DNA from: Gammaproteobacteria bacterium
Lineage (GTDB): Bacteria > Pseudomonadota > Gammaproteobacteria > Chromatiales > Chromatiaceae
Assembly (NCBI GenBank): GCA_030148485.1
Contig: JASBTJ010000042.1
Span: 1 to 64,000, forward strand
Direction of reading: 5' to 3'
Length of the DNA: 64,000 nt
Of this stretch, positions 17,240 through 48,712 are shown in pieces (the first letter of the stretch is position 1; each line of letters begins with the position of its first letter). The position numbers and the translations under genes are program-made. The notes under the pieces were generated by a model, which was not told where the DNA came from, did not search any database, and saw only the letters and a program-made list of their open reading frames with translations.

Positions 17240-17250
17240 TGGTGACCCCC

Positions 17251-22933: not shown

Positions 22934-22941
22934 CTATTTCA

Positions 22942-28176: not shown

Positions 28177-30552
28177 TCAGGTTTCCAAAATCTTCACCGG
28201 TCCGCCACTCAGGCGCAGACGCATCAGCTTACCCAGATCCTGCAGTGTTACGTCACGGGTCAGACCAGCGCTTCCAAGCCGTTGGTAGATCTGCGATCGG
28301 CTGATATCGAGGAGATACCCCAATTCTTTCAATGCGAGCGGCCGAGATTCACGCCCAAGGTAGGCAGCGAGAATCAGATCGAGGACATGGAGATAGTGAC
28401 GTAACGTCACATCAGGTCCCGAATGGCCCATGAAGCACGCCAGGTTGTACATGCCCTCGACGCTGTCGGGAATGTCCAGATCACCCGACACATGAACAAG
28501 GCGGGCCAATGCCTGTTGCCGCTCCTGATCGAATTCCGGGCTCTGGAATCCCTTCATGCCATCCAGCAGTGACGGGAGTCGCATGGCCTCTGCCGCGAGC
28601 AGTGACCAATTAGGTGGGCAATGCCGCAGCCAATGAATCACGGCGCGCGGGTCTCCGGTGACCTGTTTCAAGATCGCACCGACGAGATTGGTGGTATGCG
28701 CGTACTTGGCGACTCGGTCGCTTTCTGCGGAGGTCGTGAACAGCAACGCGGTAATCGCGTTTCCCGATTCCTGGCAGCGCCGCTGATACCATGAACGAAG
28801 GATATGCAGCTCTTCCTCACTGAGCCGTGGGAGGGGAACCATTCGGATCGCGTTGTAGGTCTTTAGCGAGTGATTGTGCTCTCGCACCAGCAGCATGGCC
28901 TGACCGTGCCACTGGATATCGCCGATGACCAGGTTCATCAATTCAAAACGTCTTAAGCCGAGAATCGTCGACAGTATCGCGATAACGAGAACCATCTGTA
29001 CCCGGCGGTCATCGTGTCGCAAAGCCGGGTGGACTCTTATTGCCATCTTCAAGCGCGCGTATTCCGCCGGCGTGACAAGCACCGGCCTTCCATTACTCCC
29101 CTCCCGCGTGTAGCCGTCGATATCCGTGTAGTCGATTGCTGGCGCCACGCCCCTGTCGACAAGAAAGTCATGAAACAACCGAATAGTGCGTGATAGGCGA
29201 TGTCTTCGCCCTACAGAGCGTCCGGCCAAGTACCGCTCATAAGCATCTGTCCAGCTATCTTCATCCAGGGTCGATAAAGAAGTCCCCGGTTCCAGCAAAT
29301 CTCCGAGCTCACAAAGGGCGCTCAGTTCACCCGCAATCGTGGCTGCGCCTCGTCCGCGATTGTTCGACCGCATCGTGTCTAGGCGCTCCTTTGCCCAGCG
29401 CAAAATCGCATTGGACAGCGGCACATCGGCATCACCGTGTGTTGACTGGCATGATGCCTCGATCGCTTTCTTTAGCTTGGTCACCGATGGCTTTGGTTGG
29501 TCTATCGCCTTCTGACCGGCGTACGCGATGATGTCTTTAATAGCACGCCAGTCGTCGTGCCGTGCTGTTGCTGGCCCTTTACTCGACACACGGCCTCGCT
29601 TGATAGGCGGCGGACCGCAAGGACAATCCTCGTAGATCCTAACAAGGTTGTACTGATCGACACCCACGCCGAAGTGCCATCGCTGAGCATAGGTAACGAT
29701 GTATGGCGGAATTCCCGAGTGAAGAAGCACATACGCCATCCAGCCACACAGCCTCTTGAATGTGACGCGCGCACCGGTTTTTGTCGGTGATCCGAGGCCT
29801 TTCCTGAGGCTTTTGAGGAGCTTCATGCTGGAGCCATCGCCATCGCGCCCAGGGAACAAACGATTCCCGACGTGCTCCCTCCACAGATCGATCAACAGGA
29901 AAGTCACCGGATGAAGATACACACGCCGGACCGGCTGCTCTAAGAGCACACGGCTGCCTGGATCGCCTGGACTTAGCGGCACATCTAAGAACACCCCTTT
30001 CGCGGTAACGGTGATTTCTCTTAGATCCGCCTGCGCGAGCCGTTTCAGCAGTGCCGCATCTAGCAATCCGCTATGACGCATAATCGAATACACGATCTGG
30101 CTGCACAGAATGTTTTTCCTCCGCGCCGTCCAACGCGTTACCTTGCCTGCGGCCATCGCTTTCCAGAAGGCTCTGTCGAGGGCTTCGAGGTAGACTTTCC
30201 CGGCCGCATTGAACGGCGTATGCGGCGAAGAAGCCCGTCTCAGCGGCACACTGTAGGGTGTTATCGGCATCCACCATGTGCGCAGCTCATTGCCCGTCTC
30301 AATGACACAGGCGAGCACCTTCTCCTGCTGCATGACCGCCAACGCGTCCGGCTGCGCTCGCAAGTGGGAAAGGACTACCTGCCTTTTCTCGATATCATCA
30401 TCAAGCCCATGCTGAAACTTTGCCATTTCTGGCCAATGCGTTTTTAGAAGCGCTCTCACGTTGGTGACGGCCTCTATTGCCGCTGGCTCTTGTCCTGCCT
30501 TTCGGGCCACGATCTCCCACCCGCTCGCCATCGCCATGTTCACGTGCTCCAT
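28177..30552 (-). CDS. Large tyrosine recombinase (GMT integrase GmtZ-like)
   Basis: 791 residues, about twice the size of an ordinary integrase. The catalytic half lies at the C-terminus: Arg in TILGLRRFELMNLVIG (~535), His-x-x-Arg-His in VIHWLRHCPPNW (~640), and His/Tyr in FMGHSGPDVTLRHYLH (~700-720). The N-terminal ~400 residues are unique. It starts two bases after the 855-residue recombinase gene. Size and order are reminiscent of GmtZ of gamma-mobile-trio elements. That subtype call is from memory of the family and is less sure than 'tyrosine recombinase'. Confidence 0.72.
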   Translation of the reverse strand: MEHVNMAMASGWEIVARKAGQEPAAIEAVTNVRALLKTHWPEMAKFQHGLDDDIEKRQVVLSHLRAQPDALAVMQQEKVLACVIETGNELRTWWMPITPYSVPLRRASSPHTPFNAAGKVYLEALDRAFWKAMAAGKVTRWTARRKNILCSQIVYSIMRHSGLLDAALLKRLAQADLREITVTAKGVFLDVPLSPGDPGSRVLLEQPVRRVYLHPVTFLLIDLWREHVGNRLFPGRDGDGSSMKLLKSLRKGLGSPTKTGARVTFKRLCGWMAYVLLHSGIPPYIVTYAQRWHFGVGVDQYNLVRIYEDCPCGPPPIKRGRVSSKGPATARHDDWRAIKDIIAYAGQKAIDQPKPSVTKLKKAIEASCQSTHGDADVPLSNAILRWAKERLDTMRSNNRGRGAATIAGELSALCELGDLLEPGTSLSTLDEDSWTDAYERYLAGRSVGRRHRLSRTIRLFHDFLVDRGVAPAIDYTDIDGYTREGSNGRPVLVTPAEYARLKMAIRVHPALRHDDRRVQMVLVIAILSTILGLRRFELMNLVIGDIQWHGQAMLLVREHNHSLKTYNAIRMVPLPRLSEEELHILRSWYQRRCQESGNAITALLFTTSAESDRVAKYAHTTNLVGAILKQVTGDPRAVIHWLRHCPPNWSLLAAEAMRLPSLLDGMKGFQSPEFDQERQQALARLVHVSGDLDIPDSVEGMYNLACFMGHSGPDVTLRHYLHVLDLILAAYLGRESRPLALKELGYLLDISRSQIYQRLGSAGLTRDVTLQDLGKLMRLRLSGGPVKILET

Positions 30553-30554
30553 CG

Positions 30555-33122
30555 TTAAACCCGCTCGAAGCCCAGCTGCGCCACCATCTGCATGATCTGC
30601 CGACGCATGCGCTCGGCATACTCATCGAGAGAGAGACGGGAATACGGCGACCACGGACCGATATCTGCGGCGACGTGTCCCATGACCCCGAGTATCAAGG
30701 GAAATGGCACTCTGCGGGCATGTAGCCAGGACGCAAGATAATGACGGTGCGCATTCGCCGGGAACGCGAATATTTCGGATAGCATGCTCCTGAAAGCCTC
30801 GACGGAAAGTGGTGACGCGGTGTGCGCACAAAAGAGCGTGAACGCACCGGCGTAGTCCTGCCGCTCGCGTTTCTCGGCCTCTCTGTTCGGGGAAGGGATA
30901 AAGATCGATCCCAGTTCCCGCATGGCCCGCGAGACACCTGTAATGCTCACGATTAGCGATGCGTGTTTTTCTTGCAGTGCGACGAGCTCTTGATGCTGCT
31001 GCGAACAACCCGGTGTGAAAGTGACAATTCGCGCGTGCGAATAGTCCGCGAAGTCCTTATCCGAGATCACACCGACGCCCGTGGCGCTGACCAGATCCGT
31101 GGTGTGCGGGAACATGGCTTTCACCACCCGATACCCGCTTTCCACGACCATTCGGTATCCCATGTAGATCGTCCGCGTGTTCAGCGCCGCAAATACATCG
31201 CCTTCTCGGCCTTCACGCAGACCCTGACGCGCACTTGAGCGCAGCTCATCCACGACGCCCCGTAGCGCAGCCTTTGTCGGCACACGCCGAGATCCCACGA
31301 AGCAGCCGTAATAGCGCTGCTTAACATCGCGCCCGAAAGGAAGTACCGGACCAACATCCACGGTCTGAGGCAGATCGCTAAGCACTTGCTGATAGTCCGC
31401 AACCAGAGACGGGACAGACAGCGCGGCATATGCGGCCGGGACCCGCGTGACAGGATCCAGAGTGCCCACCAAAAAGCTCGCTCGTAAGCGACCGACGGCA
31501 GGCAGCGCTGCGGCGGAACGATAGAGATACTGCTGGATTCGAGATCGTGTCAGGCGCGTCAGACGCTGGTCATTGGCAGCGCGCAAGACCCGTTTGATCC
31601 GGGTTTGCGCCTGTTCCGGCGAGGCGGCAGAAATCGGGAACAATAGCTTCTTATGCGACGACCCTTTCTTACCGGAACCCAGCACGACGGTCTTCAGTCG
31701 CTGAGCGAGAGAGGACGGGACAGGGAGCGGGAGAACACGCGACACGTTTCTCCCCATGCCCGGGGCCACGGCATGACCGAGCGGCGGATGAACGCCAAAG
31801 TCGGCGACGACCAAGAGGGCGTGACTTTCTACGGACCAGTGTATGGTTTCGATTTCGACGGTCTCGCCTGGCAAACCAGCGGTGTAGGTCGCCCTTAAAA
31901 GCTGGTCGATGCTGCGTCCTGTGAGAAAAGACAGCTCAACTAGCGCGGCCAGTTCCGCGGCCTCCTGGCGTTCGCCCGCGCTCCCGCCACCAGCCACCTC
32001 ATCCCACTGGGTTAGAACGTCTTCGTACAGCACGCGAAGGTCCGTCCCTGTCAAACGCTCGTAGCTGAGCGGCGCCAGGCTGAGCTGCTTGGTAAGAGCC
32101 CGTTTTTGCTGACGCACGTGCCATTCGTAGTCACACCGCGAGTAGAACCCCGTGGATAGACCCGCCTTGTCTGCGGCAGCGACATCCTGCGTGGATGCGA
32201 ACTCCCCGCCAGACAGCCCCAGCGCCCTCGACTTCCCGCCCGAATCGGTCGGGTTGGACTCAGTGATCCGAAAAAACGACACCTTAGGACGAGGTTTCGC
32301 TTCCGTCATACCGACCACTGGAATATCGAATGGCACGGCTTCGACGTGCTTGCGCCGCACGCCAACAGGCGCGCTATCTCTGGACTTTGTCGATCCAGAC
32401 GCCCTTCCTGCGCCAAGATGAGGAGTTTTGCATGCGCGGTCGCTTTGATTCTTACCGACCACGATGTCGAAAAACCGCCGCAGCGGGGTCACGAGCTTTC
32501 GGTACGCGCTATGTGCCGTGCTTTTCTCGAGGGCCTGCAATATCGCCTGAAATGCATCAGCCGATCGGCCCGCACCACCCAGCCGCTCACCGATGACCTT
32601 GCGTAGGTCGTCGTACTCGGTGTGTCCCGCGCGTCTGAGCTCTCGCGCCCAGGCATCACGTTGGGATCCAGTGACATCCTCCAGAAGATGAAGAGCTAGG
32701 AGACCATGGGCCTGCAACAGGCGGTATACACCGCATTCGCTCGACGATTCATGGAAGAGCAACGCGTAGATCGGGCGGCTTTGGTATAGATCTGTCACAC
32801 GTGCGTCAGTCCATTGCGGATCGACATAGAACGACTCACTCGTCGCTACGATCGCCTGTTTGCACCCCAGTATTTCAGTAGCAATTGCTAGCCATTCAGA
32901 CACCTCACCGCGGCTTACTGGCCGGCATATCGCGAGGAGCTCGTCGCGTAGACTGACGAGGTTCTGAAGCACATTCAGCAAGCCTCTCAGGTCACTGCGG
33001 TCCGCCTCGATTACGTTCAGAAGCACGTTCAGTTCGTACTCGGTCACCCCTTCCAGGTCATCGTGGACGAGCACTGACTTCACCGTCTGATAGTTCGCAT
33101 CACCGCGTTTAACCTTCTTCAT
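30555..33122 (-). CDS. Very large divergent tyrosine recombinase-like protein (GmtY-like)
   Basis: 855 residues. A possible box I Arg lies in FLTGRSIDQLLRATY (~400). The C-terminal motif block NAHRHYLASWLHARR, LGVMGH and SPYSRL supplies the His-Arg-His...His...Tyr pattern at about 795-840, in a deviant form. The long middle and N-terminal parts are not recognised. It overlaps the upstream 234-residue gene by 14 bases and nearly touches the next recombinase. In gamma-mobile-trio nomenclature it would be the Y protein, which is inference from layout. Confidence 0.62.
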   Translation of the reverse strand: MKKVKRGDANYQTVKSVLVHDDLEGVTEYELNVLLNVIEADRSDLRGLLNVLQNLVSLRDELLAICRPVSRGEVSEWLAIATEILGCKQAIVATSESFYVDPQWTDARVTDLYQSRPIYALLFHESSSECGVYRLLQAHGLLALHLLEDVTGSQRDAWARELRRAGHTEYDDLRKVIGERLGGAGRSADAFQAILQALEKSTAHSAYRKLVTPLRRFFDIVVGKNQSDRACKTPHLGAGRASGSTKSRDSAPVGVRRKHVEAVPFDIPVVGMTEAKPRPKVSFFRITESNPTDSGGKSRALGLSGGEFASTQDVAAADKAGLSTGFYSRCDYEWHVRQQKRALTKQLSLAPLSYERLTGTDLRVLYEDVLTQWDEVAGGGSAGERQEAAELAALVELSFLTGRSIDQLLRATYTAGLPGETVEIETIHWSVESHALLVVADFGVHPPLGHAVAPGMGRNVSRVLPLPVPSSLAQRLKTVVLGSGKKGSSHKKLLFPISAASPEQAQTRIKRVLRAANDQRLTRLTRSRIQQYLYRSAAALPAVGRLRASFLVGTLDPVTRVPAAYAALSVPSLVADYQQVLSDLPQTVDVGPVLPFGRDVKQRYYGCFVGSRRVPTKAALRGVVDELRSSARQGLREGREGDVFAALNTRTIYMGYRMVVESGYRVVKAMFPHTTDLVSATGVGVISDKDFADYSHARIVTFTPGCSQQHQELVALQEKHASLIVSITGVSRAMRELGSIFIPSPNREAEKRERQDYAGAFTLFCAHTASPLSVEAFRSMLSEIFAFPANAHRHYLASWLHARRVPFPLILGVMGHVAADIGPWSPYSRLSLDEYAERMRRQIMQMVAQLGFERV

Positions 33123-33813
33123 GGCGGATCTCCTTTTTTCGGATCCGGCGTGCGTCGTAGCCCGCGCCCGCCTGGTGGGCCGGGAGCGACCCCTTCTTCT
33201 TGTTCCGGTGAGCGATCGCCAGCTGCTTCTTTTTTTCGTTCTCGATCTTTTTATTGAGCGCCCAGATTTGGTTAGGTGAACTACCGACCGCTCGGAAGAG
33301 ATCGCTGATCGTGTCGCCTTCGATGATCATGGTCACCGCTTTTTTGAGGTAATGGCCGACCCTGAGCAGTTGGGCCAAATAGCTTGTCTTGGCACCCCGC
33401 AAGAGATAGTCGCCACAGACGTCGCTGTGCGCCCATGCCTTCTCCTGGGTCTGGGTCACGCCGTCCACCACGAGGACAGGCAGCGTGTTCAGGAGAGGCG
33501 CCAGTTCCGGCGTCGCCGCTCGGTAATCGACCAGCAGCGTCAGGGTGTCGAGATTGAAAATGGGTTGAAAGCGCACTCCGCCAGGCTCGCCCTTCGCCTT
33601 GACCTCAATCACACCGACGGGATGCTTGATCAGCTGTCGGCGAACCTCCGCAATGGCCAGCGTCCCCACGTGGCGCAGCGGTCGCTCCAAAAAGCGTCGG
33701 ATCTTCGCGGCCCGCTGCTGTGCCTCAGAAGCGGGACCGATCTGACTGATCGGTACGAGACGGATAGCCAACTGGCCTTCGTCCGCCTGACCAGGAATTT
33801 TGTTCTTGCTCAT
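33109..33813 (-). CDS. Small helper protein of the recombinase operon (GmtX-like?)
   Basis: 234 residues with a good ribosome site (AGGTGAGGC). A stretch GDTISDLFRAVGSSPNQIWA (~170-190) looks like a helix-turn-helix. The C-terminus (KKKQLAIAHRNKKKGS and on) is very basic, so DNA binding is likely. It is the first gene of the operon and overlaps the next. I recognise no ordinary integrase helper. By order it would correspond to the X protein of a gamma-mobile-trio, a family of unknown biochemical role. Confidence 0.55.
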   Translation of the reverse strand: MSKNKIPGQADEGQLAIRLVPISQIGPASEAQQRAAKIRRFLERPLRHVGTLAIAEVRRQLIKHPVGVIEVKAKGEPGGVRFQPIFNLDTLTLLVDYRAATPELAPLLNTLPVLVVDGVTQTQEKAWAHSDVCGDYLLRGAKTSYLAQLLRVGHYLKKAVTMIIEGDTISDLFRAVGSSPNQIWALNKKIENEKKKQLAIAHRNKKKGSLPAHQAGAGYDARRIRKKEIRHEEG

Positions 33814-35055: not shown

Positions 35056-35328
35056 ATGCAGACCGACACAAATCCCTTGAACTACGTCCTGTTATCGAAG
35101 CTGGCTGAATTGAGCGGGTACAGCGAGAAGGCGCTGCGCCAAAAGATTAGCAAGGGCCAGTTTATCGAGGGCACGCACTACATCAGGTCGCCCGACGGCC
35201 GTATCCATTTTCATCTACAGAGGTATCAAGATTGGCTGACAAACGCCTCCCAAAAGGGATCTCCCAGCACTACGGAAAGCTACGGATTTCCTTCCAATAT
35301 TGCGGATCACGATGTCGTGAAACTCTAG
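35056..35328 (+). CDS. Excisionase-like DNA-binding protein
   Basis: 90 residues with an AGGAG ribosome site eight bases before the ATG. The region LSKLAELSGYSEKALRQKIS, then GQFIEGTHYI and GRIHFHLQRYQDWL, is the MerR-like winged helix of phage excisionases (DUF3850/AlpA-like group). Such proteins bend DNA at attachment sites and bias recombination towards excision. The last ~97 bases overlap the integrase gene, an arrangement also seen in other phage-type islands. Confidence 0.75.
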   Translation: MQTDTNPLNYVLLSKLAELSGYSEKALRQKISKGQFIEGTHYIRSPDGRIHFHLQRYQDWLTNASQKGSPSTTESYGFPSNIADHDVVKL

Positions 35329-36416
35329 ACCTATCACCGACGACAGAGAACATTCGCACCGCCGTGAAGATGCGCGATGAAATCATCGCCAAGATCAAGG
35401 TAGGAGTCTTCAACTACTACGACTACTTTCCGGACTCGAAAAGCGCCGAAAAGTACGGGCCAAAGCCTCACTCGCGCGATGTGACATTTGGCCAAGTCGC
35501 CCAAAGATGGCTGGCCGGCCACGACCATATCGTGAAGTCGACCCGCACCGGCTACAAGAACGTGCTCAACCGATACTGGATGCCCAGGTTGGCCCGCATG
35601 CCTATCCGTGCCATCACAGGAGCCGTGTTAAAAGAAGTCATTGCTTCCTACACATGGCGGAATGCCAAGACGCGCAACAATGCCTTCTCACCGGTGCGGA
35701 TGATCTTTGAAGAGGCTTTCTACGACGGGATCATTGATACCAACCCGGCGGCTCGTGTGCGTTCGTCAAAGACACAAAACAAGCCACCAGATCCACTCAC
35801 GCTCGCTGAGGTCAATCTCCTCCTGGACCACATGGCAGAGCAGCTTCCTCCTGAGATTCATGCTTATTTCGAGGTCGCCATTTTCACCGGACTCCGAACT
35901 TCGGAACAGCTGGCTGTTCTCTGGAGTGACATTGACTGGGTTGCCAAAACCATCAAGATCGACAAAGCGAAGGTGATGAAGGAGGTCAAAGGGACAAAGA
36001 CATGCCAAGTCCGCGACGTCGAACTGAACAGCCGTGCGCTTTCTGCCTTGAAGCGACTGCGTCAGCTCTATCCAGACAATGAGGGCGAGGTGTTCATCGA
36101 CCCGATCACTGGATCTCCGTTCGTAGACGACAAGCCTCCAAGGCTCCAATGGTACGCAGCGCTCGACGCTGTAGGCCTGAGGCGGCGAGTTCCTTACCAG
36201 TGTCGCCACACGTTCGCGACGCTGAACTTGACCGCCGGAGCCAACCCAATGTGGCTAGCACGCCAGCTCGGTCACACGACAATGAAGATGCTACTGAGCA
36301 CATATTCACGATGGATAGACGGGGTGGATGCAAGAAAGGAGCTGTCGAGGCTCGAGACGTATATGTCGGGGCAGTCGTCGGGACAGGCTGGGGACAAGGA
36401 GGAGTCCGAAGAATAG
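35232..36416 (+). CDS. Phage-type tyrosine integrase (DUF3596 arm domain)
   Basis: 394 residues from a TTG with AGAGG just upstream. The N-terminus (LPKGISQHYGKLRISFQYCG, then TLDLSPTTENIRTA) is the DUF3596 arm-binding domain. Catalytic residues are Arg in IFTGLRTSEQLAVLW, His-x-x-Arg-His altered to YQCRHTFATLNL, and His/Tyr in LGHTTMKMLLSTYSRW. It overlaps the excisionase gene. Its attachment site is probably nearby, but I cannot identify it in 34,000-35,050 or 36,417-36,825. Confidence 0.88.
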   Translation: MADKRLPKGISQHYGKLRISFQYCGSRCRETLDLSPTTENIRTAVKMRDEIIAKIKVGVFNYYDYFPDSKSAEKYGPKPHSRDVTFGQVAQRWLAGHDHIVKSTRTGYKNVLNRYWMPRLARMPIRAITGAVLKEVIASYTWRNAKTRNNAFSPVRMIFEEAFYDGIIDTNPAARVRSSKTQNKPPDPLTLAEVNLLLDHMAEQLPPEIHAYFEVAIFTGLRTSEQLAVLWSDIDWVAKTIKIDKAKVMKEVKGTKTCQVRDVELNSRALSALKRLRQLYPDNEGEVFIDPITGSPFVDDKPPRLQWYAALDAVGLRRRVPYQCRHTFATLNLTAGANPMWLARQLGHTTMKMLLSTYSRWIDGVDARKELSRLETYMSGQSSGQAGDKEESEE

Positions 36417-36825: not shown

Positions 36826-38610
36826 TTAATACGGCACGAGACTTCCACACCTACATAGCGGATCATTCGATGCGCGCCCACAGAGAGAACAAGGATCGTA
36901 GTACAGCTTTTCTTCTTCCTGGATTCTGGGTGGAGTCAGGCGACGATCAAAGTATCCTGGCTTGTACGTGTAGAGTAGCTCGCCAGGGACAAAATAATCA
37001 TCGCTGACTCTGGAAACGTTCGTCCGCATCACGAGGCTTCCGGCCTCGGGCTTGCTTTGTTCGCCGGCAAGAGATTCTGCGTCAACTGCGTCGAAGGATT
37101 CGGAGCTTGACGGAGGGAACAAAAGTCCAAACTCCAAATTGTGCATCTCGGTGGCATCGATTGACTTGATGTTCAATGCCCTGGCAGTGGCATGAAAAAT
37201 TAGGTTGTCGTCAATCCTGACTTCCAACTCCAGACGCTCATGGAATGGCTTTGCTTTGGCGTCAACCGGAACAACTAGCGTCGACAAAGGATTTCGGGGC
37301 TCGTTGGGGAGAACCTTCTTGCCTGCTCGGATTGGAGCTTCGATCTGGAACTTTGCGTGGCCATCTCTGGGGTCGGCGCAGTAGAGGTGGAATTCGTCTT
37401 TCATCACCTCCCCTTCCGTCGGCATTGCGGTCCCAGACGGGACCAGGGTCATGTGAGCATTCCTTGCCAAGAGCAACTCGACGTTCTTCGCAAGGTGCAA
37501 CTGAACCTGGTCGTGCGCGATCCATGCTGCCCCTTCCGCGATCAGTGTCCCGCTTCGATCGGAAACATGAACACGCTGAGCTCCAAACCACTCGTGCAGA
37601 CGAGACTTTATTGCAGGCATATTAGCCATGCCACCGGTCGCAATGCAGGCAGATATCTGCGCAGCGGATACGTCGGCACTTTCCAAGAGCTTTCTGATTC
37701 GGTTTAAACCCTTGTCGAGAAGTGGAGCAACGATCTCCTCAAGAGTCTCGCGCGTGAGCGAATAGTCCAGATCATCGTCATCGACGCCCCGGAAAAAGCT
37801 ATTGACGTAGAGTTCAACCTTCTCGCGTGACGACAAGTCAATTTTTGCTCGCTCACAGCGATGCAACAACCTGGACAGAGCGTCAGGATACTGTTCCACC
37901 GCCTCGTCGTATCCACGCGCCTTCATGACGCGCTTGACCATCTCATTACGGAGTAACTCGTCAAACGCATCGCCACCCACTTCGTCGGTGCCGTCATTTC
38001 GCACCTGTACGAGCATTCCGTCGGCAAGCTGACACAAGGTGAGGTCAAGCGTGCCACCGCCCCAATCAAACACCAGAATCAGCTTCCGGTCATATTGACG
38101 CAGAGTCTGCGGAAGATCCGGCTGCATACGGAAGAAACCGTACAGTGCAGCCAGAGGCTCGTGCACGAATTGCACGATGGAAACGCCTGCCGACCTAAAC
38201 GCATCTCTTAATGCCGCCCGCTTGTTTCCCTGCATATCCACCGGAATAGTTACAACGGCGCGATCCACCGCCCCGAGTTCTCGCCCGCGGCGCCCCTCTT
38301 GAGCCAACTTCGCAACGAAACCGACCACATCCGAAACGATATCGACAGGGTTCTTCTCTACCCCCTCGACGAAAACTGATTCTTGTCCGAGCAAAAACTT
38401 TGGCGACCGGATCACGTTCCCCTTGACGCCAAGACCCGCCTCAGCAAGACGTTCTTTGGCCTCACGACCCACGATCGTTGATACCCCTTCGTAGCAGACA
38501 ACCGAAGGAATCGGCAGTCCTTCGTCATCCAGGTAATTTATCGCCCGCCCTCCTTGGATCGAAGAGATCAGGCTATTTGTTGTTCCAAAATCGAAGCCCA
38601 CGACTTTCAT
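36826..38610 (-). CDS. Hsp70/DnaK-like ATPase with C-terminal zinc ribbon
   Basis: 594 residues. The ATPase domain shows phosphate-1 GFDFGTTNSL (5-14), the catalytic-Lys region SPKFLLG (Lys71), phosphate-2 VFDWGGGTLDL (180-190) and an adenosine motif CIATGGMANMPAIKSRL. A short beta-rich substrate-binding-like region follows. The extreme C-terminus has CSLCGRASNDPLCRCGS, a four-Cys zinc ribbon absent from housekeeping DnaK. It starts one base after the coiled-coil gene's stop. No dnaJ or ordinary grpE is near, so this is a dedicated island Hsp70, not the cell's chaperone. Confidence 0.85.
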   Translation of the reverse strand: MKVVGFDFGTTNSLISSIQGGRAINYLDDEGLPIPSVVCYEGVSTIVGREAKERLAEAGLGVKGNVIRSPKFLLGQESVFVEGVEKNPVDIVSDVVGFVAKLAQEGRRGRELGAVDRAVVTIPVDMQGNKRAALRDAFRSAGVSIVQFVHEPLAALYGFFRMQPDLPQTLRQYDRKLILVFDWGGGTLDLTLCQLADGMLVQVRNDGTDEVGGDAFDELLRNEMVKRVMKARGYDEAVEQYPDALSRLLHRCERAKIDLSSREKVELYVNSFFRGVDDDDLDYSLTRETLEEIVAPLLDKGLNRIRKLLESADVSAAQISACIATGGMANMPAIKSRLHEWFGAQRVHVSDRSGTLIAEGAAWIAHDQVQLHLAKNVELLLARNAHMTLVPSGTAMPTEGEVMKDEFHLYCADPRDGHAKFQIEAPIRAGKKVLPNEPRNPLSTLVVPVDAKAKPFHERLELEVRIDDNLIFHATARALNIKSIDATEMHNLEFGLLFPPSSSESFDAVDAESLAGEQSKPEAGSLVMRTNVSRVSDDYFVPGELLYTYKPGYFDRRLTPPRIQEEEKLYYDPCSLCGRASNDPLCRCGSLVPY

Positions 38611-38611
38611 A

Positions 38612-39871
38612 TCAATGCTCTTCTTCTAATTCTTTGATTGCTGCCTGAAGCCCATCCAATGCTCTCTCCGCATGATCATCCATCACGCGGACCTTTGGAG
38701 GATCTTTTCGCAGCGCCTGAAGCCCTTCAGTCAGCAAGCTGACTTCGCGTTTTAGGCGACGAACGACATTCGATCTCAAATGCTCACGATCATCGCCGAG
38801 GTGTGCTCTGGAATTAGCATGGGCTGACCGCTCCGCCTCTAATGCCTCGGCAATATTCTGGATAGTGTTGTCACGCTCCTGAATCTGTGCTTCGAGATCG
38901 GCGATCACTTGCCGCAATTCCTGCTTATCCGAGAGCAAGGAATCAACCCTGCCTTGCAAATCGGCCGCCCTTAGTGCTCTTTCGTCTGCTTCCGCTTTGA
39001 ACTGCGCACACGCAACGCCGACACTCCGTACTTCAGTTAGGTCTGTCACGGCCTGCAAGGCGGTGTTCTGCGTGACATCGGGCGTCGCCACTACACTCCA
39101 ATACCCATCGTAAAGCCAGCGAATGACCCGACTGACCTGTTGCCCGCGCGAGTCTGATAGCCAAACCGCGAGGCAGTAAATCGCATTGGAACGTAAAGCC
39201 TCTGCGTCCTTAGACTTCGGTTTATCAAGTCCGGTCAGACTTGCTAGGACCTCTTGGCTGAGCGCAGCGAGGACCCGAATCGCTTTCACAGGCTCTATGG
39301 CATCATCCAGGTTCGCGATAACCGGCACGAGATCGTTGTGTTGGTATACCGGGTGCCGCTTTAACACCTCCGCGATGAATCTGCGTGTTTCTTGCCACAC
39401 CAACGGTGGTCCGCCGATGGCCTGTACTGAAAATACAATCAGCCGCGGCACCGCGAGCAACGCATCTTCCTTTGATAAAGCCAACAAGTCCTCGAAGTTC
39501 TCGTCAGAAAGTTTCGAATTCTTATTGATTGCCTTTATTTCTCCTGGCGACAAAGACTTCAAGCTCTGTCCTTTCCGCGAATACGCATAGGCAATAAAGT
39601 CTGCCAATCCATTGATATCTACTTTAGATGCTTTTTTGTTTGGCGCTTTTTTATTTCCAGCCATTTTTTCTTCGGTTTTCCCTGACTTTCCAACATCACC
39701 AGGCGTTGGATCTTGCACATCTTGTGTGACTTGATCGCGTGGCGCACCAGAAGCTTCCACTGGCGCGCCGGACTTCGAGTCCTTCCACTGCATCGCCGCG
39801 CGAGCTGTTTTTCCAGAGGTTACTTTTCCAGTACGTTTGTTCTTAATTTTGACCTTTTTCGACTCAGGCAT
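38612..39871 (-). CDS. Coiled-coil protein of the Hsp70 operon
   Basis: 419 residues from ATG 39871, whose A is shared with the previous TGA stop (TGATG); a TTG at 39886 is less likely. Residues 1-95 are Lys/Thr/Gly-rich and probably disordered. Residues ~95-270 are helical. Residues ~275-419 form a long coiled coil (LQGRVDSLLSDKQELRQVIA and on) ending in KELEEEH. A long N-terminal or C-terminal coiled coil is a feature of GrpE-type exchange factors, but no GrpE beta-wing is seen. I infer a structural partner or adaptor of the Hsp70. Confidence 0.65.
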   Translation of the reverse strand: MPESKKVKIKNKRTGKVTSGKTARAAMQWKDSKSGAPVEASGAPRDQVTQDVQDPTPGDVGKSGKTEEKMAGNKKAPNKKASKVDINGLADFIAYAYSRKGQSLKSLSPGEIKAINKNSKLSDENFEDLLALSKEDALLAVPRLIVFSVQAIGGPPLVWQETRRFIAEVLKRHPVYQHNDLVPVIANLDDAIEPVKAIRVLAALSQEVLASLTGLDKPKSKDAEALRSNAIYCLAVWLSDSRGQQVSRVIRWLYDGYWSVVATPDVTQNTALQAVTDLTEVRSVGVACAQFKAEADERALRAADLQGRVDSLLSDKQELRQVIADLEAQIQERDNTIQNIAEALEAERSAHANSRAHLGDDREHLRSNVVRRLKREVSLLTEGLQALRKDPPKVRVMDDHAERALDGLQAAIKELEEEH

Positions 39872-40983
39872 CAGTGTTCGCCCCAACCCTTAGACGTCTC
39901 GATGACGGAGTCAGCCCAACGCGAAACGCTTGGACTGTTTCTTAACTCCCTCGCATGCGTTAGCACAAGGACTCGGTTCTTCGAAGACAAGCCAATCTCT
40001 GCCAATAGGATGTGCAGCTTCGTTTGATCATATTCCGCGGGATCACTCCTCAGCATCTTTTCTATTTCCGCCTGCTCACAAAGCAGCTCGGAAGGATCTC
40101 TCACTGCCCACCTAATCAGTTGCTCGGTATCCCAATCGGTCAAGAGGTACTCGAGCTGTTCGTCCGAACCGTCGAACTGTCCAACCGACTCCGGCAGTGA
40201 ACTCCCTGACAGCCGCGTAGCAAACGCGTTAGCCGCCCGACCTACGCGTGCCCCAGGTGAAAGCGACGCGGCCTCCGGGAAATGGTTGAAATGGAACTCC
40301 ACCAACCCACCAACTCGGTTGGCGAGCGGACGGTCGAATGTCCTGAGCTTATCCAGCGCACGCGTAAACTTTTCGCGATACGCCTCGTACCGCAGCGATG
40401 ATGTGGGCGAACGCTCTTTGGCAAGAACACCATAGAGGTATTCACAGATGCCATCGCAGTAGGCCGCCGCAGTCTTGTATGGGCTTGCACCGTCAATGAA
40501 CTGCTCTATCGCCCGAACATCCAGCCTGCGATGGTGCGCCACCCGAAAGAAAGCCTGCTCGACCCCCTCCATGTCATCGTCGCTGGCAATTTCTATCCGA
40601 ATCTCGAATGACGCGTTCGCACCTTCACCCTCGAGTACGATTCGAACGGTGTCCTGCTCAATGGATGCTAAAGTCGCCGCCAGGTGATCGACGGGCATGT
40701 GTACGCCGTTCACGATCGCTGATGTGCATGCACCTGTCCCAACGTCCTGGGGAGCAAGAGAACGGGTGATCGTCACCGGCGTGCTCCCAATCTCCATCCC
40801 CCGGATGAACAAGAGCGGTCGTTTGATCGGGTGCGCCTGAAAGCGGTGTTGGCGCAAATCGTCTGCGGTATCGAACTCTTCACCGCAATGCATGCAGCGA
40901 TGAGTCGGTGGTACTGGTCGGCACCAATCCTCGATCCCAGTGGTCTCGTGAAACTCGATGTATCCCGTGTGCCAAAATCCCAT
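39871..40983 (-). CDS. C2H2 zinc-finger protein, first gene of the Hsp70 operon
   Basis: 370 residues. A single classical C2H2 finger lies near the N-terminus: Cys30, Cys33, His46 and His51 in CMHCGEEFDTADDLRQHRFQ. C2H2 fingers are rare in bacteria. The rest includes a beta-rich segment (~60-130) and a helical C-terminal part, with no family I can name. It overlaps the coiled-coil gene by its stop codon. A DNA- or protein-recognition role upstream of the Hsp70 is plausible inference. Confidence 0.7.
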   Translation of the reverse strand: MGFWHTGYIEFHETTGIEDWCRPVPPTHRCMHCGEEFDTADDLRQHRFQAHPIKRPLLFIRGMEIGSTPVTITRSLAPQDVGTGACTSAIVNGVHMPVDHLAATLASIEQDTVRIVLEGEGANASFEIRIEIASDDDMEGVEQAFFRVAHHRRLDVRAIEQFIDGASPYKTAAAYCDGICEYLYGVLAKERSPTSSLRYEAYREKFTRALDKLRTFDRPLANRVGGLVEFHFNHFPEAASLSPGARVGRAANAFATRLSGSSLPESVGQFDGSDEQLEYLLTDWDTEQLIRWAVRDPSELLCEQAEIEKMLRSDPAEYDQTKLHILLAEIGLSSKNRVLVLTHARELRNSPSVSRWADSVIETSKGWGEH

Positions 40984-41733: not shown

Positions 41734-42933
41734 ATGCCGCTGACCGACACCGTAATCCGCAGGGCCAAGCCAACTGAAAAGACCCAGCGACTGGCAGACG
41801 GCGGAGGCATGTATCTGGAGGTCGCGCCCAGTGGCGGAAAATGGTGGCGACTGAAATACCGAGTCGGCGGCAAAGAAAAACGGATCTCCCTAGGCGTTTA
41901 CCCCGACATCACCCTGAAACAGGCGCGCGAACGGCGGGACGATGCTCGCAAGCTCCTAGCGAACGGGATCGACCCCAGCGAACACCGTAAGGCTCACAAA
42001 CGAACCGTCAGGATACAGGCTGCCAATAGCTTCGAGGCTGTGGGGCGAGAATGGTTTGCCAAGCACTCACCGAACTGGGTCGCCAGCCATGCAGACCGGA
42101 TCATCCGTCGGCTGGAGCGGGACATCTTCCCCTGGATTGGGGGCAAGCCTATCGCCGAAATCACGGCACCGATACTTTTAGATGTCATCCGTAGAATCGA
42201 GCAGCGCGGCGCGCTAGAAACTGCCCATCGAGCCCTTCAAAACTGTGGCCAAGTCTTCCGCTACGCCGTAGCCACGGGCAGAGCGGAACGCGACCCGTCC
42301 GCCGATCTGCGCGGTGCACTGCCGCCTGTAAGAGGGAAACACTTCCCTGCGGTAACCGAGCCGACCAAAGTTGGCGAGGTACTCAGGGCTATGGACGGCT
42401 ACCAAGGCACTCTCCCCGTCCAATGCGCCCTACGCCTCGCGCCGCTCGTATTCGTTCGGCCCGGTGAGCTACGCCATGCGCAATGGGCTGACATTGACCT
42501 GCACGCCGCGGAGTGGCGTTTCACCGTCACCAAGACCGACACCCAGCACATAGTCCCCCTCTCCCGCCAGGCCGTCGCAATTCTAAACGAGTTGCAGCCG
42601 CTCACAGGCCGGGGGCGATACGTGTTTCCGAGCGCACGAAACCCTCGGGGCGACAAACCGATGAGCGACAATGCAATACTGGCTGCGTTGAGACGCATGG
42701 GGATCGGCAAAGACGAGATGAGCGGCCATGGCTTCCGAGCGATGGCGAGAACCATTCTCGACGAGGTACTGGGCTTTCGCCCTGATTTCATCGAACACCA
42801 GCTTGCCCATGCCGTACGCGACCCCAATGGTCGAGCCTATAACCGCACCGCTCACCTTCCGGAACGACGCAAGATGATGCAGGAATGGGCTAACTACCTG
42901 GATCAGCTGAAAGCAGAACCCAAGGCACCCTAA
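41734..42933 (+). CDS. P4-type integrase (DUF4102 arm domain, CP4-57-like)
   Basis: 399 residues. The opening MPLTDTVIRRAKPTEKTQRL, then ADGGGMYLEV and ISLGVYPDITLKQARERRDD, is the DUF4102 arm-binding domain of P4-family integrases. Catalytic residues include Arg in LVFVRPGELRHAQW, His-x-x-Arg in GHGFRAMARTI, and the His/Tyr tail HQLAHAVRDPNGRAYNRTAH. Its location just after an ssrA 3' fragment and terminator matches integrases that target ssrA. It ends convergently, sharing bases with the stop of the next gene. Confidence 0.93.
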   Translation: MPLTDTVIRRAKPTEKTQRLADGGGMYLEVAPSGGKWWRLKYRVGGKEKRISLGVYPDITLKQARERRDDARKLLANGIDPSEHRKAHKRTVRIQAANSFEAVGREWFAKHSPNWVASHADRIIRRLERDIFPWIGGKPIAEITAPILLDVIRRIEQRGALETAHRALQNCGQVFRYAVATGRAERDPSADLRGALPPVRGKHFPAVTEPTKVGEVLRAMDGYQGTLPVQCALRLAPLVFVRPGELRHAQWADIDLHAAEWRFTVTKTDTQHIVPLSRQAVAILNELQPLTGRGRYVFPSARNPRGDKPMSDNAILAALRRMGIGKDEMSGHGFRAMARTILDEVLGFRPDFIEHQLAHAVRDPNGRAYNRTAHLPERRKMMQEWANYLDQLKAEPKAP

Positions 42934-43781
42934 TCGTTTGCGCTCGCTTTGATCACGTTCGCCTCCACGAGGGCCTTCCGATACAAGCGAATAAACTGAC
43001 TGATCAATCCCCAGGAGCGAGCAGTCATCTCGTTTGTGAGCAACAAAGCGACACACCACAGCAAGTTTCGCAACGTCTCCGAGAATACGTTGTTGAGCAG
43101 ATGTTCAAGTGATTCGCCCATCTGCAAAATTCCGCCATCTTCTGCATATAGGATCTTGTTCCTAAAGTCGGCGCGCGCAGTAATAAATTGGCGCACAGTC
43201 ATACCGTGCTGATCGCGCAGCATCTGTTTTAGGTCGGAGAACAGCTCATCAACCACCTCGTCGTCACTGAGGCCGTCTTTTGAAATCGCCACATTCAGCG
43301 GATTCGGGCGTAACAGGACCTTTCCCGCACCATCTTCGATACGCAGAATAACCTGTCCTTCGTGCACCACCGGTTTAGCGTGCAAATGGATGACATCCTC
43401 CAGGCCATCAAACGTGATGCCATGCCGAACCATGTCACCCAGGATGAACCCCATCCTTGCCAAAATTGGCGAAAAGGCCAGCTTCACGTAGTGATTCTTA
43501 TGTTTTCTGACAAAGTCGCCATGAGCAGGCAAACTCGCCGAGTTTAACTTGAGCCACTCAAAGATGGCCACAACCAGCTCTTCCTCCGCCGCGATGAGGC
43601 GAATGGCCCCCATTTCTTCGTCGACGCCCTGCAGCATTGCTGCTTTGCTGTAGTGATCCAGTGATTTGTGGATTCGGCTAGCCACCTTGGTTGGGGCCTG
43701 TTCAAGGATAACCTCAACAACATCAGCCCCCACTAAAACATCAAAAGGCGCCGTATCCAGTTCTATCGAAGAGGTCGTCAT
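42930..43781 (-). CDS. Hypothetical protein at the end of the type I RM operon
   Basis: About 283 residues from ATG 43781 (an alternative ATG lies at 43787). The protein is soluble and helical with an acidic middle (DGLSDDEVVDELFSDLKQML) and a hydrophobic stretch near 235-255 (LLWCVALLLTNEM). No family is recognised. It follows the metallopeptidase gene by about 70 bases on the same strand, so it may be the last gene of the restriction operon. Role unknown. Confidence 0.55.
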   Translation of the reverse strand: MTTSSIELDTAPFDVLVGADVVEVILEQAPTKVASRIHKSLDHYSKAAMLQGVDEEMGAIRLIAAEEELVVAIFEWLKLNSASLPAHGDFVRKHKNHYVKLAFSPILARMGFILGDMVRHGITFDGLEDVIHLHAKPVVHEGQVILRIEDGAGKVLLRPNPLNVAISKDGLSDDEVVDELFSDLKQMLRDQHGMTVRQFITARADFRNKILYAEDGGILQMGESLEHLLNNVFSETLRNLLWCVALLLTNEMTARSWGLISQFIRLYRKALVEANVIKASAND

Positions 43782-43849
43782 GATCAACGTATTCTCGTGC
43801 TAAGCCCAGGCGCGGCAGATCGGCACATGCAGATTTACCACCAGGGAAC

Positions 43850-44590
43850 TCAATACCCCCAGTCCTCATGCCCAAGCGGCGCCTTGTTCAGCATGTCGCG
43901 GTACTGACGCCATTGCGGCATGTGACTTTCCATCAGCCCGGTAAAGCGCTCATTGTGATGTCGCTCGAGAAGATGGGTCAGTTCATGCACCAGGATGTAT
44001 TCAATGCATTGCACGGACTTCTTGGCCAACTCAAGGTTCAGCCAAATCCGTCTTGCCTGGGGGGTACAACTCCCCCACTTCGTTTTCATTTTCTTGATGC
44101 CCCAGTCGGCAACCTGCACGCCCAGCTTTGGCTCCCATTTAGCGAGTAGTGGTGGGATCAGAGCCTTCAACTGCTCGCGATACCAACGTGACAAGACCTC
44201 TTCCCGTTGTTCAGCCGTACTGCCCGGGCGGACAAACAGATCTAACGAGGCAATCCCCCGTGTCGCCACCTTGGGCGGCGCCACTTGCTCATGCACCCGC
44301 AGGCGATAGCGCCGCCCTAGGAAGTAATGGCTCTCGCCATTGACCATCTCACGCTCTGATTGACGCGGCTGGTTCTCAAATCCTGCCCGCTGCCGTTTGA
44401 TCCATCCCAGCTTGTCGATTACGGCCAGGCGAACGGCCTCATCACTGACCACCAAAGGGGCGGCGACCCGCACGCGGCCGTTGGGGGGATAGACCCCAAG
44501 ATGCAAGTTCTTGATGTCCTTGCGCACGACCTCGACGGTGATCCCGCTGACGACCATCCGACTTTTGGTTAGCTGCTTGCTAGTACTCAT
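43850..44590 (-). CDS. YgjP-like/DUF45 zinc metallopeptidase
   Basis: 246 residues. The zinc site HELTH lies at 202-206 in YILVHELTHLLERHHNERF, with the third ligand His further on. The upstream motif KMKTKWGSCTPQARRIWLNL is typical of the YgjP/DUF45 family. These proteins are very often encoded directly after hsdR, as here, where the start overlaps the hsdR stop by 11 bases. A role in regulated turnover of the restriction complex has been supposed but is not established. Confidence 0.88.
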   Translation of the reverse strand: MSTSKQLTKSRMVVSGITVEVVRKDIKNLHLGVYPPNGRVRVAAPLVVSDEAVRLAVIDKLGWIKRQRAGFENQPRQSEREMVNGESHYFLGRRYRLRVHEQVAPPKVATRGIASLDLFVRPGSTAEQREEVLSRWYREQLKALIPPLLAKWEPKLGVQVADWGIKKMKTKWGSCTPQARRIWLNLELAKKSVQCIEYILVHELTHLLERHHNERFTGLMESHMPQWRQYRDMLNKAPLGHEDWGY

Positions 44591-47500
44591 TCTGGTGCTT
44601 TGCTACGTCCAGAATTCGATCGACCATCGAGTCCAGATCGGCGTCTGACGGGATCTCGCCTCCGTCCTGCACACCCAAATTATCCGGAGGGAACGATGGC
44701 GCCAGGACATGGCGGATCGCGTTGCGGACACGTCTCGTCTTCATGACATTGTCCCGCCAGCCATCCTGTCGCGCTTCATTGACTGCCTGATCGACCGCAA
44801 GGGCCAAGGCCGCGTCCTTGTTCAAGTTGTTGTAGAGAGACCGTTTCGCCGGGGTATTCACGGAGGCTGGGTACGCCTCGGCACCGCCGCCCGGGGTCAC
44901 AACCTTTTTGGCCACATCGGCAATGGTTGCCAAATATTCCTTGTAGCTGACCACACCTTTACGCCGCTGCTCGATCAGTGCATCCAACAACTTCGACATT
45001 TTCTCGTAGTAGGCCGGATCGACTGGCGACTCGTTGATGATGAGCTTGCGGACGTTGTTCTCGATGGTCTCGGCAACCGCTTCCTCACTCGTCTTGATGC
45101 CCTTCGGAAGTGCCTCAATCGCCTCCGGGCCTCGTTCGACAATCAGCTGGATCAGGCTCAGGTCATCGAAGGCCGAAATCTTCTCGCTCTCGTCGGCCCG
45201 GATGTAGGTATCGATCAGGTGACGCATGGCGGGTTCGTAGGCTTTCAGATCGATGTAGTCGCCACTCGCCAGCTTTACCTCGTCCCGCACCTTGCTGTAG
45301 TGGTCGACCTCTTCCTTAATCTTGCTGATCTCGTCCGCCGTATAGCCCGCCTCAGCTAGTTCGCTAGCAATGCTGGCGTAGGCCCGCAGCAGGGCCGCCA
45401 CAAACTTGTAGAGCTTCAGCCGCTTCGGTTCGTTGTCCTTCAGTTGTTCCGCGTTGCCGGAGTCCTTGGCGCAGAAGTAGTGCAGATAGGCCGCTGAGTC
45501 CCTGGGCATGGCAACCGGCTCGCACAGGGCCTTGACCGCCTCACGGGCCTCTTCCAGGTCGTCCCTCCCCTTTTCCAGCCGGTTTTCGAGCAGGCCGGCC
45601 ACGTCTTCCTTGTCGTAGCCATCCAGCGCACCGCTGGTGTAGTCCTCCACCGCGCCTTCCAGGCTTTGAAACAGATCCTTGTAGTCGACGATGTAACCGT
45701 ATTCCTTATCGTCACCATCGAGCCGATTGACCCGACAGATGGCCTGAAACAGGCCGTGGTCGCGCATCTGCTTGTCTATATAGAGATAGGTGGCCGATGG
45801 CGCATCAAACCCCGTAAGTAGCTTATCCACCACGATCAGCAGCTTCATCTGCCCCGGTTCATCGGTGAACTTCTTTTTTACCTGCTGCTCGAACTTCTCG
45901 ACCTTGCGAATCGCCTTGTCCACGGGGTCGTTGAACCAATCGGCCAGCATCTGGGAATACACGCCGTACTTAAGCAGATTATCCGTATCCCCCTCGCCCG
46001 TCGTTTCACTCTTCGTGTCGGCCACGGTCGGCGCATAGCTGGTAACGATCGCGCATTTCCCCTTGAGCCCCATGGTAGAAAACAGCTCGTAGAACTTGCA
46101 GGCCTCAAAGATGCTGCCCGCGACCAGCATGGCATTGCCGTGGCCATCCATCAGTCGGGGTCTGGTATCCAAGTCGAGCACGATGTCCTGAGCGATCCGT
46201 CTCAGTCTGTCCTGACTGGAAAGCACCCGCTGCATGGTGCCCCACTTCTGTTTCAGCTGGGCCTTGGCAAGATCGTTCAAGCCCCGTGTCTTAGCCTCGA
46301 ACCACTGATCGATTTTGGCCTTGTTGGTCAGTTCCTGGTCGATGTCGCGTGCTTCGTAACGCAGGTCCAGCACCACGCCCTCACGCACGGCCTGGTCGAA
46401 CTTGTAGGTGTGAATGTAGCGTCCGAACACCTCGATGCTCTTCTTCTTGTCTGCCTTTAGCAGCGGCGTACCGGTAAAGCCGATAAACACCGCATTCGGC
46501 AGCAACGCCTTCATGGCCTTGTGCAGATCACCCGACTGGGTTCGATGGCACTCGTCCACGAACACGTGGATGTCGCCCTTCGCTTCAAAATCCGCCGGCA
46601 GGTTCTGCAGCGACTCGATGAACGCCTTGGTCCCTTCGTTGTCATCTTGCTCGGAATCGCCACGGCCACCGAACTTATGGACCAGTGAACACAGCAATGA
46701 CTCATCGGCGCGGTTCAACTGGTCAATCAGATCTGCACCGCTCTTGGTGCGATAGATGTCCTCGCTGACGCCCTTGAAGACCTTCTCGATCTGCTCGTCC
46801 AGCTCGGTGCGGTCGGTAATGATCAGTACTCGCGCCTCGGGCCGATGCTCGCCTATCCACTTGGCCAGCCAGACCATGGTGAGCGACTTGCCGCTCCCCT
46901 GGGTATGCCAGATGATCCCGCCTTCTCGTCGTGTGACGAATTCCTGAGCAGCCTTTACGCCGAAATACTGGTTCTGTCGGCACAACTTCTTTATGCCGGC
47001 GTCGAACACCACAAAGTCGTGGATTAGCTCCAGGAAGCGATGCTTCTCGCATACCTGCAGTAGGTGCCGGTCGAGCAGATTGGGCTCGTCGGCAAACTCG
47101 CCGGTTTCCTCCACCCATTTCAGGTAGTACTTCTCCGGGGTTTCGATGGTGGCGTAGCGCAGGCCTTCGCTGTCGTTGCCGGCCATCACCCACTGCATGG
47201 TGGAGAAAAACGGCTGAATGAATTCCTTCTTCTGGTTATCCAGGTTCTGCCGGATGCCATTGGCCACGGACACCGTGGACCGCTTTAGTTCCAGCACCCC
47301 TAGGGCAATGCCATTCACGTACAAAACCACGTCGGGGCGTTTGGTGCTGGCCTTGGCTGCGTTGGCAAGATCCGCGCCCTTGACAGTGACCTCCTCGGCC
47401 ACGGCAAAGTGATTGTTCTCGGGATTTTCCCAATCGATGAGCCACACGGTGACCGTGTTCTCGCCATGCTCTGGCTTCACCTTCACGCCATAACGCAGCT

Positions 47501-47756
47501 TTTCGTACACAGCACGATTGCGATCGTACAGATGCTTGCTGGTGTCTCCCGCCACTTTGCTCAGCTCATGAATGGCGCGGCGGGTCAGGGTGCTATCCAC
47601 ACCCTGCTTGTCCAGCCAACGCTGCAGCAAGGCGGGCTCGATATTGCTGTTGTCCCGATCTATCAGGTCGCCGAGATAGTCGTAACCCAGGCGTTCCCGG
47701 AACAGCGCGACCACACGGGCCTGTGTTTTCCTTTCGATCTGGCCGACGGTGCTCAT
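44580..47756 (-). CDS. hsdR: Type I restriction enzyme subunit HsdR
   Basis: 1,058 residues. The N-terminal PD-(D/E)XK nuclease has RPDVVLY (Pro141-Asp142) and VLELKRS (Glu156-Leu-Lys158). The motor domain shows Walker A HTQGSGKSL at 284-292 and a DECH box at 401-404 (VFVDECHRTQSG), followed by motif VI-like QAICRVNRLDG. HsdR translocates DNA after HsdMS binds an unmethylated site and cuts at a distance. It begins one base after the stop of the nuclease gene upstream, so it is part of the same operon. Confidence 0.95.
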   Translation of the reverse strand: MSTVGQIERKTQARVVALFRERLGYDYLGDLIDRDNSNIEPALLQRWLDKQGVDSTLTRRAIHELSKVAGDTSKHLYDRNRAVYEKLRYGVKVKPEHGENTVTVWLIDWENPENNHFAVAEEVTVKGADLANAAKASTKRPDVVLYVNGIALGVLELKRSTVSVANGIRQNLDNQKKEFIQPFFSTMQWVMAGNDSEGLRYATIETPEKYYLKWVEETGEFADEPNLLDRHLLQVCEKHRFLELIHDFVVFDAGIKKLCRQNQYFGVKAAQEFVTRREGGIIWHTQGSGKSLTMVWLAKWIGEHRPEARVLIITDRTELDEQIEKVFKGVSEDIYRTKSGADLIDQLNRADESLLCSLVHKFGGRGDSEQDDNEGTKAFIESLQNLPADFEAKGDIHVFVDECHRTQSGDLHKAMKALLPNAVFIGFTGTPLLKADKKKSIEVFGRYIHTYKFDQAVREGVVLDLRYEARDIDQELTNKAKIDQWFEAKTRGLNDLAKAQLKQKWGTMQRVLSSQDRLRRIAQDIVLDLDTRPRLMDGHGNAMLVAGSIFEACKFYELFSTMGLKGKCAIVTSYAPTVADTKSETTGEGDTDNLLKYGVYSQMLADWFNDPVDKAIRKVEKFEQQVKKKFTDEPGQMKLLIVVDKLLTGFDAPSATYLYIDKQMRDHGLFQAICRVNRLDGDDKEYGYIVDYKDLFQSLEGAVEDYTSGALDGYDKEDVAGLLENRLEKGRDDLEEAREAVKALCEPVAMPRDSAAYLHYFCAKDSGNAEQLKDNEPKRLKLYKFVAALLRAYASIASELAEAGYTADEISKIKEEVDHYSKVRDEVKLASGDYIDLKAYEPAMRHLIDTYIRADESEKISAFDDLSLIQLIVERGPEAIEALPKGIKTSEEAVAETIENNVRKLIINESPVDPAYYEKMSKLLDALIEQRRKGVVSYKEYLATIADVAKKVVTPGGGAEAYPASVNTPAKRSLYNNLNKDAALALAVDQAVNEARQDGWRDNVMKTRRVRNAIRHVLAPSFPPDNLGVQDGGEIPSDADLDSMVDRILDVAKHQNEY

Positions 47757-47757
47757 G

Positions 47758-48684: not shown

Positions 48685-48712
48685 TCTTGTTTTCCCCGTC
48701 CCTGATCCCTTA

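Follow-up and report, generated by a model that had tools for sequence, protein, structure and literature searches.

What does an Hsp70 do when its gene is coupled to those of a C2H2 finger protein and a coiled-coil protein, and when all three lie between two integrases? This question is raised by a gene trio at positions 36826-40983 (minus strand) of the window, by which we mean the whole stretch of 64,000 nucleotides analysed here, from a member of the Gammaproteobacteria (contig JASBTJ010000042.1). The preliminary description of this DNA had read the three genes as coupled by TGATG and a one-base gap, in the order C2H2 protein, coiled-coil protein and Hsp70, with an integrase on either side. 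The open reading frame coordinates bear this out: the ATG of the coiled-coil gene overlaps the TGA of the C2H2 gene as TGATG, the Hsp70 gene starts after a one-base gap, and both flanking genes encode tyrosine integrases. The features are as follows.

39871-40983, minus strand: C2H2 protein, 370 aa, with the finger, a small beta domain (aa 57-131) and a helical TPR-like C-terminal region (aa 135-364)
40831-40896, minus strand: C2H2 finger, Cys30 to His51, retained in 11 of 11 intact homologues
38612-39871, minus strand: coiled-coil protein, 419 aa, with a disordered N-terminal tail, a helical domain (aa 89-276), a long helix and a C-terminal hairpin
38708-39031, minus strand: single long helix of the coiled-coil protein, aa 281-388, in the AlphaFold model
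38621-38776, minus strand: conserved C-terminal block of the coiled-coil protein, aa 366-417, candidate docking site, 53% mean pairwise identity
36826-38610, minus strand: divergent Hsp70, 594 aa, PF00012 E 3e-49, hhalign probability with DnaK 99.9%
37513-38610, minus strand: nucleotide-binding domain of the Hsp70, all tested catalytic residues present including Lys71, in 12 of 12 homologues
38161-38172, minus strand: Gln147 and His150 of the Hsp70, replacing DnaK R167 and N170 in 12 of 12 trio Hsp70s
37486-37488, minus strand: Lys375 of the Hsp70, replacing DnaK linker D393 in 12 of 12 trio Hsp70s, with D in all controls
36847-36891, minus strand: four-Cys ribbon C574-x2-C577-x8-C586-x-C588 at the Hsp70 C terminus, in 12 of 12
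35232-36416, plus strand: tyrosine integrase beside the trio, PF12167 and PF00589
41734-42933, plus strand: tyrosine integrase beside the trio, PF13356, PF22022 and PF00589

The junctions between the genes were -14 to +24 nt in all intact homologous loci measured, so the coupling is not due to chance. The integrase at 41734-42933 is 45% identical to an integrase near the trio in another locus (L017). No convincing att repeats were found around the trio, and promoters and terminators at the trio did not rise above chance.

The island around the trio

The trio is surrounded by defence genes, namely a Wadjet type I system, a type III restriction-modification (RM) system, GmrSD-like and PD-Lambda-2-like genes, a DrmD-like helicase with a WYL protein, a type I specificity subunit and two PADLOC candidate families. 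The complete Wadjet set (JetD, JetC, JetB and JetA) occupies 7391-14285 and is adjoined by the type III RM pair at 14297-19293, and one run of genes at 19321-26881 encodes the GmrSD-like protein, whose C-terminal part resembles PDC-S18, a HigA/PD-Lambda-2-like gene, a small gene, the DrmD-like SNF2 helicase and the WYL regulator. Tandem large genes for proteins of 791 and 855 aa, plus one of 234 aa, follow at 28177-33813; the 855 aa protein has a weak phage-integrase match, and this segment together with 27006-28166 resembles a tyrosine-recombinase cassette. On the other side of the trio, a 285 aa protein (42930-43787), convergent with the integrase gene, matched nothing in Pfam, PADLOC or NCBIfam, and type I RM-like genes at 43850-53093 carry inserted PDC-S02 (47758-48780) and PDC-S44 (48713-49444) genes, with a YgjP-like metallopeptidase at 43850-44590. 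The BREX core proteins BrxC, PglX and PglZ were absent among the 20 island proteins of the window that were scanned. McrB and McrC were found neither among the window proteins scanned nor beside the trio in two other loci, L006 and L010.

The Hsp70 and its two partners

HMM searches and structure prediction had been named in the preliminary description as the way to identify the three proteins, and they gave a divided answer: the Hsp70 was placed clearly in PF00012, and the C2H2 and coiled-coil proteins showed no clear family or fold. For these two, Pfam, NCBIfam and PADLOC held no meaningful family beyond a weak C2H2 match, which in the single sequence (E 0.0044) fell below the Pfam cut-off, and no Foldseek hit reached E < 0.05, with only middling TPR and coiled-coil matches. 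The PADLOC 2023 models did not match the C2H2 protein or the Hsp70 and gave only weak coiled-coil hits for the coiled-coil protein. No nuclease, membrane or toxin family was detected in the trio with Pfam, PADLOC or NCBIfam.

The ATPase motifs and the four-Cys ribbon noticed in the window are general features of the trio Hsp70s, as the ribbon and Lys71 are present in all 12 homologues. By DnaK numbering, the residues D8, T11, T12, K70, E171, D194, T199, D201, G341 and G342 are retained in 12/12, and so are P143 and R151 of the proline switch. The residues that are replaced lie elsewhere: R167 has become Q, N170 has become H and D393 has become K in every one of the 12, whereas all three are retained in the relatives used as controls (12/12 DnaK and 9/9 HscA-like sequences); D326 is likewise lost from the trio Hsp70s. 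Their linker is of the LHLAKNVEL type, compared with VLLLDVTPL in canonical DnaK, and their IB loop lacks about 24 residues relative to DnaK. The match to the SBD-beta runs through part of this domain at low confidence in hhalign and HMMER, no helical lid could be reliably aligned, and the sequence beyond the SBD-beta comprises just a brief spacer followed by the Cys ribbon. In the tree the trio Hsp70s are monophyletic and far from DnaK (support 100/100). Triggering by the J-domain and allostery between the Hsp70 domains both depend centrally on R167 and D393 (PMC7289447, PMC6843406). As judged from its residues, the trio Hsp70 has an intact ATP motor with a changed trigger; the replaced relay residues could alternatively indicate weak coupling between the Hsp70 domains.

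The absence of a dnaJ neighbour, stated in the preliminary description, holds for the whole window: J-domain (PF00226) matches were found in this genome only on contigs C82 and C2. The GrpE family (PF01025) had no match in the assembly, which is 91.6% complete. We considered that the trio Hsp70 might be the only Hsp70 of the cell, as the core dnaK is also absent from the assembly, and rejected this, because dnaK and grpE are adjacent in relatives and the genome is incomplete, so that their absence is most likely an assembly gap. The coiled-coil protein was also considered as a GrpE homologue, as an apparent register of LLxEGLxAL with VxDSLELGLxA of GrpE looked suggestive. The hhalign probability was 0.5%, no better than the reversed control, and no coiled-coil member of the trio family matches GrpE in Pfam. 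The coiled-coil protein is thus not detectably related to GrpE, and neither its predicted fold nor its sequence supports a nucleotide exchange factor. A divergent GrpE-family protein does occur in a 384 aa frame (E 6e-7) at locus L032 (genome G057, contig C64), whose genome has a normal grpE elsewhere.

The finger reported in the preliminary description is a genuine family trait, since C-x2-C-x12-H-x4-H is found in 11/11 intact homologues, although the Pfam match is weak. The predicted structure of the C2H2 protein (pLDDT 85) contains the finger, the small beta domain and a helical region that is weakly TPR-like: its C-terminal part resembles many TPR chains with Z of 6-8 (maximum 8.2) at an rmsd of 3-10, with Foldseek E > 0.05. 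The finger helix, LRxHRFExH, is nearly invariant among homologues, and the reading of variable DNA targets is therefore doubted; such a helix speaks against the finger as a variable recognition surface. In the model of the coiled-coil protein, a helical domain is followed by a single helix of about 108 residues and then by a terminal hairpin. Its mean pairwise identity is 53% over the last 52 residues, with the consensus LRxxxxRRLKxEVxLLxEGLxALRxDPPKVxVMxDHAER, compared with 28% in the helical domain and 24% in the coil. The conserved C-terminal end may be a docking site, and the variable helical domain would be the better candidate for a sensor.

Distribution and defence contexts of the trio

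Homologues of the trio were sought in plasmids, genome contigs, viral contigs and sampled genomes. The intact trio was found in the same gene order at 11 loci. Beyond the window it occurs in L005, L006 (Thiocapsa), L007, L008 (an acidobacterial MAG), L009/L011, L010/L012, L015, L017, L065 and L066. Two Paenarthrobacter plasmids (L003 and L004) carry a copy in which an IS3 element interrupts the first gene. The identity to the window proteins was 48-68% for the Hsp70, 34-46% for the C2H2 protein and 24-39% for the coiled-coil protein. Of 210 genomes from the order to which the window belongs, 7 carry the C2H2 gene (four intact copies and three remnants), and the coiled-coil gene is present in all four genomes whose C2H2 gene is intact and in no other; in other genome samples, the trio was found in 2/398 and 2/369 (both including the genome of the window), 1/36 and 1/342. 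Among the viral contigs, a scan with the single Hsp70 sequence gave no match and the alignment scans found two contigs. The trio is accessory, rare and patchy, and not core, its copies are shared by unrelated bacteria, and the possibility raised earlier that its homologues occur mainly in core genomes is contradicted by these counts. Additional genes were observed beside some copies: a 446 aa coiled-coil protein, one base past the Hsp70 gene in L003 (13769-15109), is a possible fourth member and matches no family; a 186 aa protein with no assigned family lies directly upstream of the Thiocapsa trio (L006 7044-7604); and a degraded copy of the latter (L069 7951-8385) precedes a frameshifted C2H2 fragment in genome G1209.

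Whether the trio is conserved as a unit near defence genes had been asked in the preliminary description, and the constant gene order and the nesting in BREX and Hma loci answer in the affirmative. In L010 the order is brxB, brxC, pglX, the trio, pglZ and brxL, with strong PADLOC matches for all core genes; the C2H2 gene follows pglX by 2 nt and the Hsp70 gene overlaps pglZ as ATGA. In L015 the trio likewise lies between pglX and pglZ, genes named here by their resemblance to those of L010 and not by a model search. L010 groups with L007 in the Hsp70 tree (100/99) and L015 with L009 and L003 (86/95), and because they fall in different groups the insertions into BREX in L010 and L015 were probably independent events. 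In Thiocapsa the trio is located between hmaA and hmaB-hmaC of Hma, which is a candidate system according to PADLOC's authors (PMC8565338), and in L017 an hmaA-like N-terminal fragment lies directly upstream of it. DrmD and DrmMI-like genes are found downstream of the trio in L065, type III-D Cas7 genes upstream in L066, and a GmrSD gene 20 bp downstream in L007. In L067 (8018-8314) and L068 (4760-5040), from two genomes of one genus, the C2H2 gene breaks off after 75 codons and passes directly into the final codons of the Hsp70 gene. This fragment follows brxL at a distance of about 50 bp, in a BREX locus where a GmrSD gene is also present; the L068 remnant also contains an in-frame stop. Read at the level of the sequence, these junctions are the scar of a deleted trio. 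Inspection of L009 by eye showed a serine recombinase and ParB-like genes beside the trio and no recognisable defence system, the L005 contig is short, and neither L008 nor L009 has an intact modification system within the stretch examined; such loci mean that the trio may act alone.

The link of the trio to defence is in our judgement likely, because it is based on repeated nesting in defence operons and not only on co-residence in an island. The nesting in BREX and Hma points to an auxiliary module of modification-based systems at least as much as to a stand-alone one.

Explanations of the trio and comparison with known systems

The reading we favour, with a probability of about 0.45, is that the trio is a mobile auxiliary module of immunity whose Hsp70 is driven by its own dedicated partners, and not by DnaJ and GrpE, to remodel a client protein. 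The C2H2 protein and the coiled-coil protein, the latter probably oligomeric, would be the client adaptor and the co-chaperone that substitute for DnaJ and GrpE, and would dock onto a lidless Hsp70 with a rewired inter-domain relay. ATP turnover by the Hsp70 would then remodel a protein client during infection, most likely either a modification-based defence complex (BREX, Hma or DISARM-like) or a phage counter-defence protein attached to such a complex. ATP-driven remodelling through dedicated adaptors is proposed because of the Hsp70 fold and its motifs; we infer the physical association of the three proteins, their co-chaperone roles, the identity of the client and the anti-phage activity.

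The trio might instead be a stand-alone sense-and-act system against phages or plasmids that recognises an invader protein and then disables it or triggers growth arrest, with no need of BREX or Hma, and that is merely inserted in defence loci like BrxU and PARIS. We regard this as possible, if on the doubtful side. It would suit the position of the window trio between two integrases, the absence of the BREX core from the scanned island proteins, the neighbours of the trio in L009 and the constant number of three genes in the intact trio, and there are documented cases of stand-alone systems within BREX (BrxU, PMC8565348; PARIS-like modules, PMC12839542). However, in contrast to BrxU and PARIS, the trio has no nuclease, membrane or toxin family found, and the repeated insertion between core genes and the start/stop overlap in L010 exceed mere co-residence in an island. 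The same insertion between core subunits, together with the Hsp70 itself, could also be expected of a folding or assembly chaperone for large defence proteins that are hard to fold, such as PglX, BrxC and DUF499 ATPases, which would raise the yield or lower the toxicity of the neighbouring system and never meet phage proteins. This appears improbable: BREX and Hma are far commoner than the trio and so do not generally need it, the systems beside the trio (BREX, Hma, DISARM-like, CRISPR III-D and GmrSD) have unrelated subunits, and L009 offers no recognised partner.

Still less probable is an RNA- or nucleic-acid-directed module, as proposed for CnuD of CoCoNuT, with the finger and the ribbon as binders of nucleic acid and the Hsp70 as the detector of aberrant or viral RNA. 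The trio does have two putative zinc-binding motifs, and Hsp70-like NBD/SBD units are present in CoCoNuT defence systems (PMC11090510), but the ATP motifs of CnuD are reportedly degenerate, whereas the tested ATPase residues of the trio are all intact, and the searches found neither McrB/McrC nor a HEPN or cold-shock partner in the trio. That the Hsp70 is an ordinary stress paralogue carried as cargo, with no role in defence, has its family membership on its side and can hardly be reconciled with a monophyletic group far from DnaK that has partners of its own, a patchy distribution and a place within defence operons.

A bolder reading is put forward only tentatively: a class of bacterial immunity driven by a dedicated Hsp70 independent of J-proteins, in which the C2H2 adaptor and the coiled-coil co-chaperone might direct the lidless Hsp70 to stalled defence complexes or to counter-defence proteins of the phage, and so restore BREX-, Hma- or DISARM-type restriction. 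If this is true, protein remodelling by a dedicated chaperone would join nucleases, toxins and membrane effectors as a principle of immunity, and a portable chaperone cartridge would work with unrelated defence systems. A natural Hsp70 whose J-domain relay is replaced would allow alternative Hsp70 triggers to be tested, and there would be a direct experimental way into how BREX loci might withstand counter-defence.

A match to an already described three-gene system, which would have made the trio a known one, was found neither in PADLOC 2023 nor in the literature searched, and within this scope the trio looks like an undescribed candidate system. Only the CoCoNuT papers were relevant to such a trio or to an Hsp70 with BREX, and the main text of the BREX survey (PMC12839542) does not mention Hsp70, DnaK, chaperone or C2H2. 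With DnaK and HscA (PF00012) the trio Hsp70 shares the nucleotide-binding domain with all tested ATPase residues, the P143/R151 switch and, at low confidence, SBD-beta-like strands; it differs from them in R167Q, N170H, D393K, the changed linker, the shorter IB loop, the absent lid and the four-Cys ribbon, and has no J-domain match nearby. The CnuD and CnuCD proteins of CoCoNuT type III (PMC11090510) likewise bring an Hsp70-like NBD/SBD and coiled-coil proteins into a defence locus, but they belong to McrB/McrC systems and CnuD reportedly has degenerate ATP motifs, whereas in the trio the motifs are intact, one partner is a C2H2 protein and McrBC is missing. BrxU (PMC8565348) and the auxiliary effectors (PMC12839542), accessory modules of BREX, are also extra genes among BREX core genes, but these are nucleases or OLD/TOPRIM-type modules. 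An analogy of the slot to that of BrxU was dropped, because brxU lies between brxC and pglX (PMC8565348) and the trio between pglX and pglZ. The nuclease-protease pairs (PMC12799240) resemble the trio as a small gene set repeatedly acquired by unrelated immune systems, but their effector is a pro-nuclease cut by the protease, whereas the trio has a chaperone ATPase and no nuclease was found in it. Finally, bNACHT25 also ties a chaperone to phage sensing, but it relies on the DnaJ of the host (PMC12169576), whereas the trio, with no J-domain match, encodes an Hsp70 of its own.
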